Part shown: piece after piece, positions 14,670 through 20,289 of the stretch
Position numbering within the stretch: the first letter of the stretch is position 1
Layout of the letters: each line of letters opens with the position of its first letter
Assembly (NCBI GenBank): GCA_016794325.1
Contig: JAEUKG010001157.1
Coordinates: 1 to 37,030, forward strand
Direction of reading: 5' to 3'
Length of the DNA: 37,030 nucleotides
Source of the DNA: Myxococcales bacterium
GTDB taxonomy: Bacteria > Myxococcota_A > Polyangia > Polyangiales > Polyangiaceae
Notes under the pieces: model-generated
What the model was told of the DNA's origin: nothing
What the model saw: only the letters and a program-made list of their open reading frames with translations
The model's database searches: none
Translations under genes and position numbers: made by a program

Positions 14670-16157
14670 ATGGCTAACCTTCCGAAGTTTCGACCTGTGA
14701 TGCTGAACGCGCCGCGCAAGCCCGCGCTGCGCGCGCTCGTGCGTCCGGCGCCGGCCCCCTCGCCGCCGCGCCGCCGGGTCCCGTCGCCCTCGCCGCCCCC
14801 CGCGATCCGCAAGCGCGAGGCCTCCGAGCCCGGCCAAGACGAGTTCCGCGGCTCGCTCGAGCCCCGCACCCTCCGCCAGCAGCCCCGCCCGCGCGAAGAG
14901 TCGTATTCGGACGAGACGATGACCGCGGTCCGGCCCGTCGATCCCGGCCTCCTGCGCGCCTCGCAGGAGCTCGACGCGATCGAGGACGACGCGATCTCCA
15001 CCGGCGAATACGACTCGGTCACCAAGATGCGCATCGAGCCCCGCGGTCGCCGCGAGCAGTCCGGCGCGTCGGTGGTGAGCTCGCTCCCGCGCGAGTCGCT
15101 CTACGAAGACTCGTCCCCGGGCGAGCTCGGCGGCCGCGACACCTACCCCGAGAGCGGCGACTACGCCCAGGCCGACGTTCGCGAGCCCTCGTCGTACACG
15201 CCCCCGCCGGTGGCGGACGACATCGACGTGGTGGTGGAGCCCTCCTCGATTCAGGTCCACGCCGAGCGCTTCTCGTCGCGCGCTCGCATCGCGGCCGCCG
15301 CCCAGCCCCCGACTCGTCCCCTCATGCCGCCGGCCGCGACCGCCGCATACGGCTCGATGGGCCGTGACGCCTTCGCGTCGAACGCGGGCTACCAGGCCGC
15401 GCCGCAGGCGCCGACGCCGCACTACGGCATGCCGCACGCGTTCCCGGCCGCGCAGCTCCGCACTCCGCCGATGCCGGCGCACTTCGCCCAGTATCCGCAC
15501 CAGCAGGGCTACGCGATGCAGCCCACCGTCCCCCCGGCGCGGCGCTCTTCGGGCATGGGCGTCCCCCAGGGGATGGCGATCAGCGTGCCGCCCCCGGCGC
15601 AGGCGAAGAAGCGCGCCGACATCAAGCGCATCGCCTGGTTCGTCGTCGGCATGGCCGTCGGCATGGTCGCGATGTTCGCGGTGTACGGCCGCCCCTGGCT
15701 CCGCGGCGAGACCGACCCCTCCGCGGCCGACGACTCGACCAGCACCCCGACGCTCGCCGCCGCCGCTCCGACGACGCCGCCCCAGCTCGTCGCTCCGCAG
15801 CCGCTCCCCGTCGCGCAGCCCGTCGCGCAGCCGCTCCCCGTCGCGCAGCCGCTCCCCGTCGCGCAGCCGGCGGTGGCGCCGACCGCCCCCGCGGTCGCGG
15901 CTCCGCCCGTGGTCGCGGCGCCCCCGCCGGTCGCGCAGCCCGCGGCGCCGAAGCCGGCCGCGAAGCCCTACACCCCGCCGCGCGCGCCCGCCGCGCCGGC
16001 GCGCCCGAAGGCGCAGCCCAAGTCCGACAACGAGCGCCCGACGCCCCTCGGCGAGGACGGCCCGACCCTCGGCGGCTCCTCGGCCCCCGCGCCCGCCAGC
16101 CCCGCCGCGCCGAGCGCGGTCGACAACCCGGCCGACCTCCTCTCGAAGGGGCTCTGA
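14670..16157 (+). CDS. Single-pass membrane protein with disordered Pro/Ala-rich arms
   Basis: A 495-residue protein of unknown function. The first 320 residues are low in hydrophobic content and mostly disordered, apart from an acidic patch near 80-120 (DETMTAVRPVDPGLL, ELDAIEDDAISTGEYDSV) that may be a conserved interaction segment. One membrane helix (about 321-341, RIAWFVVGMAVGMVAMFAVYG) follows a basic stretch, AKKRADIKR, indicating a cytoplasmic N terminus. The C-terminal 150 residues are Pro/Ala/Val-rich with QPLPVA repeats, probably in the periplasm. Similar proteins in myxobacteria often accompany Ser/Thr kinase signalling, but nothing here proves that. The ATG at 14670 has GAGGGAG directly upstream; 14 more codons are open. 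It converges with pyrE. Confidence 0.72.
   Translation: MANLPKFRPVMLNAPRKPALRALVRPAPAPSPPRRRVPSPSPPPAIRKREASEPGQDEFRGSLEPRTLRQQPRPREESYSDETMTAVRPVDPGLLRASQELDAIEDDAISTGEYDSVTKMRIEPRGRREQSGASVVSSLPRESLYEDSSPGELGGRDTYPESGDYAQADVREPSSYTPPPVADDIDVVVEPSSIQVHAERFSSRARIAAAAQPPTRPLMPPAATAAYGSMGRDAFASNAGYQAAPQAPTPHYGMPHAFPAAQLRTPPMPAHFAQYPHQQGYAMQPTVPPARRSSGMGVPQGMAISVPPPAQAKKRADIKRIAWFVVGMAVGMVAMFAVYGRPWLRGETDPSAADDSTSTPTLAAAAPTTPPQLVAPQPLPVAQPVAQPLPVAQPLPVAQPAVAPTAPAVAAPPVVAAPPPVAQPAAPKPAAKPYTPPRAPAAPARPKAQPKSDNERPTPLGEDGPTLGGSSAPAPASPAAPSAVDNPADLLSKGL
15798..15863 (+). repeat. 18-bp repeats encoding QPLPVA
   Basis: The unit cagccgctccccgtcgcg is found at 15798-15815, 15828-15845 and 15846-15863, with a 12-base shortened unit between the first two. 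The repeats lie in the Pro-rich extracytoplasmic arm and keep frame. Confidence 0.85.
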
Positions 16158-16205
16158 GCCCCGTCGAAGGGCCTCGGCCGCTCGAGCGCCCGCCCCCGCG
16201 CGCGA

Positions 16206-16754
16206 TCAGTCGGGGATGAAGTCCCGTCGCGTGTAGAGTGCACGGAACGGGTAGCGCGCGGCGATCGCCTCGCCGCCGCCCTCGAGGCGATCGACGAGCG
16301 CGACCACGGCGGTCACGACGTAGCCCGCGGACTCGAGCTTGGCTGCGGCCTTGAGGGTCGAGCCGCCGGTGGTCACCACGTCCTCGAGGAGGGCGACGCG
16401 GGCGCCCTGCGGGAGGTGGAGGTTGCCCTCGAGGTCCCGCCGGGAGCCGTGTTCCTTCGCCTCTTTCCTGACGAAAATCGCGTCCTTGGCGGCGCCGTCC
16501 TGGTGGGTCACGAGCGCCACCGCGCTCGCCAGGGGGCAACCGCCGAGCTCGACGCCAGCGACCGCGTCGCAGGCGGGCAGGTCGCGCAGGGCGTCGGCGA
16601 AGAGGCGGCCGACGAGGGCGTGCGCCTCACCCGACAGGACCGTCTGCTTGCAGTCGATGAAGAAATCGCTCTCGCGCCCCGACGCGAGGACGACCTTGCG
16701 GCGCGCGAACGATCGCTCCCGAAGGAGCTCGAGCAAGCGCGCGCGCGCGGTCAT
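16206..16754 (-). CDS. pyrE: Orotate phosphoribosyltransferase
   Basis: Converts orotate and PRPP to orotidine 5'-phosphate in UMP synthesis, in the cytoplasm. The type I PRTase PRPP-binding motif VALLEDVVTTGGST lies at 120-133, and the flexible catalytic loop with KEAKEHGSRRDLEG lies before it. GVELGGCPLA matches the family's ribose-phosphate contact region. The length, 182 residues, is at the short end of the usual range of about 180-215. Its ATG overlaps the stop of the bactofilin upstream (ATGA), implying translational coupling, so a nucleotide-synthesis gene is tied to a cytoskeletal operon. It ends 48 bases from the convergent gene at 14670-16157. Confidence 0.94.
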   Translation of the reverse strand: MTARARLLELLRERSFARRKVVLASGRESDFFIDCKQTVLSGEAHALVGRLFADALRDLPACDAVAGVELGGCPLASAVALVTHQDGAAKDAIFVRKEAKEHGSRRDLEGNLHLPQGARVALLEDVVTTGGSTLKAAAKLESAGYVVTAVVALVDRLEGGGEAIAARYPFRALYTRRDFIPD

Positions 16755-17347
16755 GCGCGCTTCTTGTGGACGGCCTTCGCGCCTTTGCGCAGCGCGGGCA
16801 CGACGGGGGCGGGCGGGCCAGGGCGCGCCCCGGCGATGGTGGCGCCGCGCGCGGGGGCGCTCTTCGCCGCCGGCTTCGCGGGGATCTTGGCGACCGGCTT
16901 CGGCGGCTCGGCCTTCTTCGCCGCGGGCGCCGACTGCGGCGCTTCGACCTTCTTCGGCGCGACCGCGGGCTTGGGCGCGGGCCGGGCGGCGCTCGCGGCG
17001 GCGGTGCGGCTCTTCGTGGCGCCGGGCTCGCGGGGCCCGGTGGTGACGAAGCCGCGGATGAGCGCGCCAGGCGCGACGCGGATGCGGGGCGCGCGTGCGT
17101 CGCCGACGACGCGGGCGCCGGCGTCGAGCTCGATGGACTCGGCGCCCACGAGGTCGCCACGGACGGCGCCGCGGACGACGACGCGCTGACCGGTCAGGTT
17201 GGCCGCCACGAGGCCTTTGACCTCGACGACGATCTCCCCGCTCACCTCGACGTCGCCCTCGACGCGCCCAGCGATCGCGAGGTCGCCCTCGCCCTGGATG
17301 CGACCTCGTACGACCGCGCCTTCACCGATGACCGTGACGTTCGACAT
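16751..17347 (-). CDS. Bactofilin with long basic Pro/Ala/Lys tail
   Basis: Bactofilins polymerise into nucleotide-independent filaments through a right-handed beta-helix. Residues 1-110 show the regular hydrophobic/Gly repeat (VIGEGAVVRGRIQGEGDLAI, RVEGDVEVSGEIVV, VRGAVRGDLVGAESI). Residues 115-198 form a Lys/Pro/Ala-rich, positively charged tail ending KGAKAVHKKRA. Myxococcus xanthus BacP has a comparable extended tail that mediates partner binding, so this may be the partner-recruiting subunit; that equivalence is inference. It is the third bactofilin of the operon, 14 bases after the second, with GAGGGAG before its ATG. The final ATGA couples it to pyrE. Confidence 0.92.
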   Translation of the reverse strand: MSNVTVIGEGAVVRGRIQGEGDLAIAGRVEGDVEVSGEIVVEVKGLVAANLTGQRVVVRGAVRGDLVGAESIELDAGARVVGDARAPRIRVAPGALIRGFVTTGPREPGATKSRTAAASAARPAPKPAVAPKKVEAPQSAPAAKKAEPPKPVAKIPAKPAAKSAPARGATIAGARPGPPAPVVPALRKGAKAVHKKRA

Positions 17348-17361
17348 GCTCGTCCACTCCC

Positions 17362-17676
17362 TCAGACGTCCATGTCGACGCTGCCCTTGAACTGGGCGCC
17401 GTCGGCGATCGTGATCCGCGTGGCCTTGACGTTCCCGACGACCTTCGCGCCGTTCTGCAGATCGACGCGGTCGGTCGAGGTGATGTTGCCGGTGACGGCG
17501 CCCGCGATCTGGGCGGGGCCCGACGCGATGTCGGCTTCGACGCTGCCGCCCGCCTCGACCACCACGCCGTCGCGCGCGGTGAGCTTGCCCCGGAGGGTGC
17601 CCTGCACGACGACGTCGTCGTCCGTCGAAAGGTCCCCCTCGATCGTGATGCCTGCGCCAATCACCGTCGTGGCCAT
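17362..17676 (-). CDS. Short bactofilin
   Basis: A 104-residue protein consisting almost entirely of the bactofilin beta-helix core: TTVIGAGITIEGDLSTDDDV, LRGKLTARDGVVVEAGGSVE and VDLQNGAKVVGNVKATRITI. It has almost no N- or C-terminal tail. In M. xanthus the BacN/BacO/BacP proteins copolymerise; this one would be a core filament subunit. It is the second gene of the operon, 51 bases after the first bactofilin. Confidence 0.92.
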   Translation of the reverse strand: MATTVIGAGITIEGDLSTDDDVVVQGTLRGKLTARDGVVVEAGGSVEADIASGPAQIAGAVTGNITSTDRVDLQNGAKVVGNVKATRITIADGAQFKGSVDMDV

Positions 17677-17727
17677 CTGCTCTCGTCTCCGTTCTTGCGT
17701 ATCTTGAGTTTGTCGCGCCCGCTCGGC

Positions 17728-18123
17728 TCAGCGGCGCCGGCCGCCGGCCCTCGCGCCGCCGAGCTCGGCGAGCTCGGCGGGGAGCTCGAAGTCCGCCTCG
17801 ACGCGGCCCGCGAACTCGGCTCCTTCGTCGATCGCCAAGGACTCGCCGCGGACGTCTCCGGTGAGCTTGGCGCCGGCGCGCACGTGCACGACGCCGCGCG
17901 CCGTGACGTCGCCCTCGAGCGTGCCCGCGACCGTCACGCTGTCGGCCTCCACGTTCGACTGGAGTCGGCCCGTGGCCTCCACCGTGAGGTCGCCGCGGAT
18001 CGCCACGTCGCCTTCGACGGCGCCCTCCACCAGGAGGTCGCCGTCGCCGTGCACGCGACCGCGGAGCTTCGCCCCGGCGCCGATCACGGCGTTGGACTGG
18101 GAAGATCGTTGCGCTCTAGCCAT
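17728..18123 (-). CDS. Bactofilin, first gene of the bactofilin-pyrE operon
   Basis: A 131-residue bactofilin. A short polar N terminus (ARAQRSSQSN) precedes the beta-helix (AVIGAGAKLRGRVHGDGDLL, VEGDVAIRGDLTVEA, VEADSVTVAGTLEGDVTARG). A short C-terminal tail ends GGARAGGRRR and may bind an acidic partner. It is the most upstream of three tandem bactofilins followed by pyrE. The spacer to the Cys-rich lipoprotein gene upstream is 78 bases (18124-18201), so the promoter probably lies there unless transcription reads through. Confidence 0.92.
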   Translation of the reverse strand: MARAQRSSQSNAVIGAGAKLRGRVHGDGDLLVEGAVEGDVAIRGDLTVEATGRLQSNVEADSVTVAGTLEGDVTARGVVHVRAGAKLTGDVRGESLAIDEGAEFAGRVEADFELPAELAELGGARAGGRRR

Positions 18124-18201
18124 CGAGCGCCGTCTTACTACAGGCGCACCTCGGGGGGCTATCGCGAACCGCTCCCCGCCCGCCGCCGCCGCGCGGGCGC
18201 T

Positions 18202-18657
18202 TCAGAGGACCCGGCACACCTTCTGCTGGACGCTGCAGCCGAGGTTCGGGCTGACGGCCGCGCACTCGGAGTCCTTGCTGCAGGCCTTCGTGCAGCGCTT
18301 GCCCCGCGCGGGGAAGTCGAAGCACACGTTCGACGCGCAGTCCTTGTCTTTGGAGCACGCCGCCCCGAACGCGCCCGGGGCAGCGCCGGCGTCCTTCGCT
18401 CCGCCGCCGGCGTCGCCGCTGCCCGCGTCTTTCGCGGGCGCGCCCGCGTCGCCGTCGTCGTCGTCGTCGCCGCCCTTCGGAGCCGGGGTCGCCGATCCAC
18501 CGCCGAGCCCGCCGCCCTGCGGATCCGACGGGGCCGGGAGCGTCGGCGCTGCGTTCTGCTCGCCCTCCATCGCGCCCACCTGCGCGTCCGGGTTGCCGCT
18601 GCAGGCGGTGAGCGACGCGAGCGCGAGGACGAGGGACCCGACGAGGGAGGTGCGCAT
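18202..18657 (-). CDS. Small Cys-rich lipoprotein with acidic linker
   Basis: A 151-residue predicted lipoprotein: lipobox LTAC (Cys19), a long Gly/Pro/Asp linker including five consecutive Asp, and a C-terminal domain of about 55 residues with eight cysteines (ACSKDKDCASNVCF, RCTKACSKDSEC, LGCSVQQKVC). This is a small disulfide domain seen in many myxobacterial surface lipoproteins. A strong GAGGAGG precedes the ATG at 18657, which fixes the start; the frame runs open far upstream. The ligand is unknown. It lies 149 bases downstream of the trypsin-like gene (stop 18807) on the same strand. Confidence 0.8.
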   Translation of the reverse strand: MRTSLVGSLVLALASLTACSGNPDAQVGAMEGEQNAAPTLPAPSDPQGGGLGGGSATPAPKGGDDDDDGDAGAPAKDAGSGDAGGGAKDAGAAPGAFGAACSKDKDCASNVCFDFPARGKRCTKACSKDSECAAVSPNLGCSVQQKVCRVL

Positions 18658-18806
18658 GCGCCCTCCTCGTGCAAGCGCCCTGCCTGTGCGTCGAGCGCGG
18701 CGAAGGTGGGCAATTCGGCGACGGCGCTCGCGCCCGCGCGGAAAAATCCAGCGCGAACGCGCGCCGCGAGGGCGCGCGGGGCCCCGCTGGAGGTCGCGCG
18801 ATCCGC

Positions 18807-20246
18807 TCAGGCCGCGCGGCGACGCCGGCGAGCGACGACGAAGAGCGCGAGCGCGAGCGGCGCGAGCCCCGCCGCCCCCGAGCTCGAGGGCGCGGCGGAG
18901 CAGCCGCCGCCGTCGCTCGCGCCGCCGCCCCCGCCGCTGCTCGAGCTCGAGCTCGCGGCCGGATCGGTCGGCGCGGGATCGCCGGGCGGCGGATCGGTGG
19001 CGGTGCCGTCGCCGAGGGAACCCTTGCAGACTGCACACTTCGACGTCTGGCAGGCGGCGAGCTTCTGGTAGGCGGCGTTCTTCGCGCACTGCGGATCGGC
19101 GCCGCCGGTCTTGATGCAGTCGTAGCCGCGCCCGTCCTTCGCCGCCGCTTGCAGCTCGGTGCAGCACGACGACTCCACGCACGTGCGGCAGTCGGCCCCG
19201 GAGATCTTGTAGCCGCACACCGGCGTGCCGAAGCAGCCGACGCCGCACGAAGACTTGCAGCCGCCGGCCAGGCACGAGCAGTAGCTGACGGCGTACGCGG
19301 GCCCGACCCCGAGCGGGTATTTGCCCTCGCACGTGGCGCGGCAAGCGTCGTCCTTGCAGGCGTTCACGCACTCGACGAAGTTGGTGCAATCGCGGTTGCC
19401 GGCGCACGCGGCCTGGTCGTTGGCGCAGGCGTTTTTCCCCGAAAACGCGCTCTTCTGGCAGATGGTGCACGCGCTGCCCGCGGGCGCCTTCGCGACCTCG
19501 CCGTCGGCCCACGTCGCGGCGGCCGAGATGCGCCCGCTCACCGACGTGCCGGTGCAGCCGCCCACGCCGTACGAGTGCACTCCGGCGACGTACTCCTTGC
19601 CGGCGATGGTGTAGAGGTCGGGCCCGCCGCTGTCGCCCTGGCACGTGCCGCCGCTCTGGAAGTCGAACGCGATCTTCGTCGACGACACCTGCGAGATCGA
19701 CAGCGAGATCGACTTGCGGCGCGACTGCGGAGGCTCGGGGTCGGTGGGCTGGACCTTGCCGTACCCGAGCGCGAGGATCGTCCTGCCGGCAGCGAGGTTG
19801 TCTTGGGCGGGCTTGAGGTAGGGGATGGTCGGCGTCGTCGCGTCGGCGCCGGCGGCGCGCACGATCGCGAGGTCGTAGCTCGAGTCGACCGCGCCCGTGT
19901 ACGAGGGGTGGGACGTGTAGTCGAGCACCTCGTAGAGGAGCGCCGAGGCCGCGTTGAAGTCGGGCCCCTGGATCACGTAGCGCGGCGGCGAGGTCACGCA
20001 GTGGGCGGCGGTGAGGACCCAGAGCACGCCGGTCGCGGGATCGGTCTTGACGATGGTGCCGGTGCAGAGCCCCTGGTCTTGGGCGATCGCGACGACGGCC
20101 TCGTGGGTGGTGTCGTATTGCCCGCCGATGATCGGCTGCTCGGTGCTCGACGCGCGCTCCGAAGGAAGCCCCGCCGGCTCGGTCGTGCACGCGGCGGCGG
20201 CGGCGACGAGGGCGATCGAGAGGGCGACGAAGGGACGGGTCGACAT
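18807..20246 (-). CDS. Trypsin-like (S1) protease with Cys-rich domain and MYXO-CTERM-like anchor
   Basis: A 479-residue exported serine protease. The triad is intact: H82 in LTAAHC, D125 in SYDLAIV and S206 in CQGDSGGP. The mature N terminus would be IIGG (39-42). Residues 265-430 hold about 30 cysteines in CxxxC-type patterns. The tail has a Ser/Gly linker, then GGCSAAPSSSG, a hydrophobic helix and RRRRRAA, the layout of MYXO-CTERM sorting signals that are processed at the Cys. The N terminus also ends in AAAC (Cys20), so a lipobox cannot be excluded. The ATG at 20246 is chosen for GGAGG about six bases upstream. The downstream neighbour is a Cys-rich lipoprotein, the upstream one trmH. Confidence 0.92.
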   Translation of the reverse strand: MSTRPFVALSIALVAAAAACTTEPAGLPSERASSTEQPIIGGQYDTTHEAVVAIAQDQGLCTGTIVKTDPATGVLWVLTAAHCVTSPPRYVIQGPDFNAASALLYEVLDYTSHPSYTGAVDSSYDLAIVRAAGADATTPTIPYLKPAQDNLAAGRTILALGYGKVQPTDPEPPQSRRKSISLSISQVSSTKIAFDFQSGGTCQGDSGGPDLYTIAGKEYVAGVHSYGVGGCTGTSVSGRISAAATWADGEVAKAPAGSACTICQKSAFSGKNACANDQAACAGNRDCTNFVECVNACKDDACRATCEGKYPLGVGPAYAVSYCSCLAGGCKSSCGVGCFGTPVCGYKISGADCRTCVESSCCTELQAAAKDGRGYDCIKTGGADPQCAKNAAYQKLAACQTSKCAVCKGSLGDGTATDPPPGDPAPTDPAASSSSSSGGGGGASDGGGCSAAPSSSGAAGLAPLALALFVVARRRRRAA

Positions 20247-20289
20247 GGAGCCTCCGGGGACGCGAAGCATGGCATTCGGTGGCTCGCGG

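Follow-up and report, generated by a model that had tools for sequence, protein, structure and literature searches.

The minus strand of the window, which is the whole of a 37,030-nucleotide contig (C806) from an 8.7 Mb genome that is 88% complete in 1300 contigs, carries four genes in head-to-tail order: three bactofilins and then pyrE, with stop-to-start spacings, calculated from the coordinates, of 51 nt between Bac1 and Bac2, 14 nt between Bac2 and Bac3 and minus 4 nt between Bac3 and pyrE (Table 1). The preliminary description of this DNA had seen three head-to-tail bactofilins of different architecture, the last sharing ATGA with pyrE, and the minus-strand open reading frames and their coordinates bear this out; the tails beyond the bactofilin core measure 22 aa in Bac1, 2 aa in Bac2 and 96 aa in Bac3, the last having a high content of K, P and A and a basic end that terminates in PPAPVVPALRKGAKAVHKKRA.

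Table 1 Features of the bactofilin–pyrE block in the window
Feature	Coordinates	Strand	Basis	Remark
bac1 (bactofilin, 131 aa)	18123..17728	-	ORF	First gene of array; positional counterpart of BacN
bac2 (core-only bactofilin, 104 aa, BacO group)	17676..17362	-	ORF	
bac3 (bactofilin, 198 aa)	17347..16751	-	ORF	Positional counterpart of BacP
pyrE (orotate phosphoribosyltransferase, 182 aa)	16754..16206	-	ORF + TIGR00336	
bac3 stop / pyrE start overlap, ATGA	16751..16754	-	Sequence	

All three bactofilins pass PF04519 (85.2, 85.6 and 72.1 bits for Bac1, Bac2 and Bac3, against a gathering cut-off of 27.9), the Bac3 match spanning residues 5–100. Their layout is of the BacNOP type, with three in tandem and the third long-tailed, and this layout is found in 41 loci, 39 with a native-type pyrE and 2 with one of lower score. 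Bac2 is BacO-type: in a tree of 121 rows and 99 columns, all 28 Bac2 rows fall with MxO in the BacO clade with support of 100/99, a clade that also contains long-branched BacM rows, which may be misplaced. For Bac1 and Bac3, a BacN or BacP grouping took 8 label changes each in this tree of 99 columns for 121 rows; they occupy the BacN and BacP places as positional counterparts, Bac3 with a BacP-like long basic tail, and with the BacO placement of Bac2 the comparison with the M. xanthus trio in the preliminary description is apt. Two further bactofilins are encoded in the same genome, on contigs C739 and C423. The first clusters with Myxococcaceae BacM (support 99/96); the second is a divergent bactofilin (50 bits) slightly overlapped by the gene of a neighbouring pentapeptide-repeat protein (218 bits; L005:1125-2816).

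The fourth gene is predicted to encode an orotate phosphoribosyltransferase: its product scores 127.7 bits against the cut-off of 106.8 for the NCBIfam equivalog TIGR00336, and most of the named solved structures closest to it are enzymes of that kind. It has the look of an ordinary enzyme and carries no extra domain. The idea of a duplicate or repurposed PyrE was rejected on these ordinary family scores and on there being one match above cut-off in the genome; as the assembly is 88% complete and split into 1300 contigs, it leaves room for a second copy.

Bac2 is preceded by a GGAG-type ribosome-binding stretch, ACGGAGAC. No such stretch stands immediately before the pyrE ATG (caagaagcgcgcATGA), where there is just AAGAAG, which encodes the KK of the Bac3 tail. 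Across the loci described below, GGAG-type stretches are about equally common before linked (37/94) and unlinked (42/120) pyrE, in counts that include duplicates of some genomes, so ribosome-binding sites were rejected as general evidence for reinitiation. A scan of positions 16000–18700, of a kind that is weak for high-GC genomes, gave neither a promoter-like site nor, on the minus strand, a terminator-like one, and an Rfam search of the window gave no match, so a hidden RNA element was rejected.

Upstream of the block, at 18807–20270 on the minus strand, lies a gene for a trypsin-like protease with a MYXO-CTERM sorting end, adjoined by a short Cys-rich lipoprotein-like reading frame (18202–18657); neither is kept beside the block in relatives, as judged from 61 loci of the window's order.

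Conservation of the block across the phylum

The search for pyrE covered 115 genomes from the window's order, of which 108 gave a match, 144 from the class and 140 from the phylum; we collected the DNA around 99, 40 and 40 of the matches, respectively, which with the window made 180 loci. The class and phylum matches were hand-picked, 40 each, to spread families; within the order, 100 of the 108 genomes with a match were examined, the window's included, and those left out (G097, G029, G016, G023, G112, G096, G009 and G086) matched with E-values no better than 1.6e-19. Context was defined as 1500 nt or more ahead of pyrE, which 165 of the 180 loci have; the 15 shorter ones were counted as neither linked nor unlinked, and bactofilin matches below 35 bits were dropped.

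On this basis, 84 of 165 loci, from 25 family groups and including the window, have one to three same-strand bactofilins directly upstream of pyrE (three in 41, two in 21 and one in 22), and 81 are unlinked; within the window's order, 57 of 86 loci with context are linked. Arrays of three genes are found in the family and the class of the window and also in further classes of the phylum (groups f38, f40, f46, f48 and f60). The preliminary description had proposed comparing synteny across Polyangia, and the junction proves to be conserved well beyond them. On the pyrE tree the linkage changes state 15–16 times, compared with about 37 times in shuffles, indicating that linked loci cluster strongly on the tree and that the linkage has arisen or, as is more likely, disappeared more than once.

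The conservation is specific to the block. Among 61 loci of the order that are flanked on each side by 4 kb or more, Bac1 has matches in 41, Bac2 in 39, Bac3 in 39 and PyrE in 59, compared with 0 (four genes), 1, 7 and 8 for the genes outside the block. Where a genome has both a tandem array of at least two bactofilins and a native-type pyrE in context, the two are adjacent in 62 of 68 genomes and apart in 6; three of the 62 score below the 100-bit line for native type, and 57 of the 66 unlinked genomes were searched for arrays, the other nine belonging to genus g27 with 0 or 1 bactofilin. As the block is kept while its flanks are reshuffled, an accidental local junction is rejected, and the accidental coupling that the preliminary description had allowed for is unlikely. 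The bactofilin–pyrE pairing is old and widespread in the myxobacterial phylum.

The junction itself is short: among 87 junctions (counted without L240, L270, L295 and L296, three being repeat genomes and L240 a presumed one), the spacing is exactly minus 4 nt in 36, an overlap of any length in 41, 0–30 nt in 34 and more than 30 nt in 12, so that 75 of 87 lie within 30 nt. Where genes overlap in bacterial operons, they do so most often by 4 nt; an overlap of this length therefore indicates an operon and not a special tie.

Blocks of three bactofilins and pyrE also occur in L265 (6686-8546; a Bdellovibrionales assembly) and L252, both outside Myxococcota by record title, for which transfer, mis-binning or deep origin may be the source; given L265, the block may be older than the phylum or may have been transferred. 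A contig titled as a Klebsiella pneumoniae metagenome-assembled genome (L274) has a pyrE near the delta-proteobacterial type (49% identity) and is probably mislabelled or mis-binned.

padC, purF and the tail of the last bactofilin

In Myxococcaceae a further gene lies within the block. Corallococcus sp. CA053C (L222) has three bactofilins, a 505-aa ParB-like protein and then pyrE 2 nt on; the ParB-like protein matches PDB 6RYK, which we take to be M. xanthus PadC, with 331 bits. PadC is present in 75 of 76 Myxococcaceae genomes, and in all 30 of the loci read padC is followed by pyrE at -4 to +27 nt; the end of bacP, visible in 25 of these, encodes KKKVVVKK in 23 and KKKVVLKK in 2. Three of 205 residues separate the PadC of L326 from 6RYK; at these L328, L329 and L330 have the 6RYK residues, making three Myxococcaceae genomes with a PadC identical to 6RYK over the 205 residues. 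Two genomes with 6RYK-type PadC (L376 and L377) show the full locus as bacN-bacO-bacP-padC-pyrE. The PadC-like gene overlaps pyrE by 4 nt in L219 and L225 (Anaeromyxobacter-like), L223, L224 and L263. In this order pyrE always comes last and padC has been added ahead of it, after bacP, which rules out the view of the preliminary description that pyrE takes the place of padC.

The window has no PadC reading frame between bac3 and pyrE, and a PadC search of its genome (88% complete) gave no match. In its order, 18 of 115 genomes gave weak matches, the best of 31.7 bits, which are probably other ParB proteins. Lin et al. (2017) placed bacNOP in a putative operon with two uncharacterized reading frames, one of them padC, and described the bacNOP–padC clustering as conserved; pyrE is not named in the passages of that paper available to us (PMC5703909).

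The linkage is not obligatory. Genus g27 has kept pyrE with at most one bactofilin, and five genomes of one family, the window's own (L363, L365, L367, L369 and L373), have an array with no pyrE after it in at least 3.3 kb of sequence read; another gene or none follows, and their pyrE is of a divergent type or was not found. G086, G094 and G110, which stop at a contig edge after the array, and G112, which stops soon after, are uninformative in this respect. What comes after the array in L363, L365 and L373 is a gene for a secreted-looking protein, similar in all three and containing PPPPPRHHG or PPPPPRYHG.

In family f15 the array is followed by another nucleotide gene: all five genomes (L391, L395, L396, L400 and L401) have purF on the same strand, 27–190 nt on by the listed starts and above the TIGR01134 cut-off. 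By our reading of the loci, purF also lies directly upstream of pyrE in 16 Desulfuromonadales-type loci, and L204 has it 3 kb downstream of an array followed by pyrE. One reading is that the ancestral neighbourhood held purF, pyrE and the array, with lineages keeping different pairs.

The long tail is always on the last bactofilin of the array. In Bac3-type tails the K+R fraction averages 0.35 over the last 15 residues and 0.14 elsewhere, and the end is the more basic part in 82 of 87 (in the set without L240, L270, L295 and L296). The terminus is a motif of proline, hydrophobic and basic residues, repeated in the window's family in forms like PPPPVVPVLKKGTKAVQKKR. A single regular expression matched just 14 of 51 tails from six family groups and was abandoned; a Pro-hydrophobic-basic end that varies by lineage describes the motif better. 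The five genomes of the window's own family whose array lacks a following pyrE retain it, and the f15 tails, ahead of purF, end in AKKKIRRR, KKKVRRR, KKKLRRR or RKKAVKRR. Since the motif is kept both without PadC and without pyrE after the array, neither protein is likely to be its sole ligand.

In L194 and L216 the last bactofilin ends in a SAP domain (PF02037; 41.5 and 40.9 bits against a cut-off of 23.9), and a SAP-like end can be seen by eye in L215 and L275, the set comprising family group f38 and a named relative. SAP domains are usually considered to bind nucleic acid; such an end on a bactofilin would likely contact nucleic acid too, which fits a chromosome-linked scaffold.

Readings of the gene order

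We think it probable that the block is an operon of long standing in the phylum, opened by a BacNOP-like array and closed by pyrE, in which expression of the scaffold is tied to UMP synthesis. The three scaffold proteins and PyrE would be made from one mRNA; in the window's genome, ribosomes finishing Bac3 would restart at the overlapping pyrE ATG, and pyrE would depend on transcription of the array. It would benefit the cell to coordinate the amount of a growth-linked scaffold with UMP synthesis, and this benefit and the dependence of pyrE would together have kept the gene order; PyrE would not need to bind the scaffold. The operon reading is supported by the 84 of 165 linked loci, the 36 of 87 junctions with a 4-nt overlap, the adjacency in 62 of 68 genomes, the persistence of the block against its flanks and the padC–pyrE order in 30 of 30 loci, by the array preceding another nucleotide gene, purF, in one family, and by the negative promoter and minus-strand terminator scan of 16000–18700, weak as such scans are for high-GC genomes. 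Against it stand the 81 of 165 unlinked loci, the 12 of 87 junctions wider than 30 nt and the five arrays of the window's family with no pyrE; the window's pyrE lacks a GGAG-type stretch, but the near-equal frequency of such stretches before linked and unlinked pyrE gives reinitiation no general support.

It is also possible, on a more tentative footing, that pyrE has lost its own promoter and stays by whatever transcribes it, with no benefit to the array; any well-expressed neighbour would then serve. This would account for the change of partner between phyla, with purF and not bactofilins directly upstream of pyrE in the Desulfuromonadales-type loci, and for pyrE surviving alone where the array is lost, as in genus g27; the array–purF pairs of f15 may be what is left of an ancestral neighbourhood of purF and pyrE. 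Such a passive lock-in sits poorly with array and pyrE being found together in 62 of 68 genomes amid flanks reshuffled across the phylum, and with padC having entered between bacP and pyrE while the block still held.

ParB is a CTP switch, and the M. xanthus bactofilin scaffold holds chromosome segregation machinery. The block, with padC in Myxococcaceae, might form a nucleotide-to-chromosome module in which scaffold dose, pyrimidine supply and the state of CTP-binding proteins are set together, although we consider this doubtful; were it true, the one family with purF in place of pyrE would show this coupling with a different nucleotide gene.

We consider it unlikely that PyrE is a client of the scaffold, bound by the Bac3 tail or polymer so that UMP synthesis is placed there, as PadC is by BacP. 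Adjacency, the long tail always borne by the last bactofilin and its basic end would suit such binding, and filaments of CTP synthase are a precedent for a pyrimidine enzyme in a cytoskeletal role. The M. xanthus BacP tail, which contains KKKVVVKK, is a docking site that binds PadC, according to the parts of the sources available to us (PMC5703909, PMC12448750). Yet the C-terminal motif outlasts the loss of pyrE in the five genomes named above, a similar basic end is found in purF-linked arrays, PyrE is kept in many genomes with no array, and the enzyme itself looks ordinary, lacking any additional domain. There is no support for PyrE binding the scaffold, and the suggestion in the preliminary description that the coupling could tie the enzyme's location to the scaffold has evidence against it.

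Very unlikely, in our view, is a direct coupling to nucleotide state, in which CTP-switched segregation machinery sits on the scaffold and the supply of UMP, UTP and CTP is set together with scaffold dose: the adapter PadC, which binds CTP without noticeable hydrolysis in the parts of the reports available to us (PMC8367383, PMC12704722), is encoded between bacP and pyrE in Myxococcaceae, but pyrE is still linked in the window's order, where PadC is not clearly present, and PyrE is two enzymatic branches away from CTP.

The BacNOP–PadC scaffold of M. xanthus is a model for cytoskeletal positioning of chromosome segregation. In the open-access literature, searched by title, we found no paper on a link of bactofilins with pyrE or purF, nor any mention of a scaffold block that ends in pyrE and is kept across the phylum. 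Deletions within the bacNOP-padC-pyrE operon warrant a check for effects on pyrE and pyrimidine pools, ParB and PadC being CTP binders. The gene order makes a link between nucleotide supply and chromosome organization testable in a tractable laboratory organism; if only lock-in is at work, it is a clean case of an enzyme gene long held by an unrelated scaffold.

Comparison with known systems

The E. coli rph–pyrE operon is governed by UTP-modulated attenuation. There pyrE is the second gene, its expression depending on the upstream gene; in the window, too, pyrE stands behind an unrelated-looking gene on which its expression may depend. Unlike E. coli, with its intercistronic attenuator, the window has a 4-nt overlap and no minus-strand terminator-like site in 16000–18700; an attenuator of the rph–pyrE kind was not found.

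The Desulfuromonadales-type purF–pyrE pairs (for example L220, L221, L228 and L231) resemble the window in that pyrE is the downstream gene of a same-strand two-gene block; they differ in that the partner, purF, is itself a nucleotide enzyme gene and no bactofilin lies nearby.

The closest parallel is bacNOP–padC. Unlike M. xanthus, the window has no padC between bac3 and pyrE and its genome has no PadC match, and the Bac3 tail ends in RKGAKAVHKKRA where M. xanthus BacP holds KKKVVVKK instead. Both have three bactofilins in tandem and of comparable length, the third carrying a long, disordered tail with a basic motif at its end, and in Myxococcaceae, as in the window, the block ends with pyrE.
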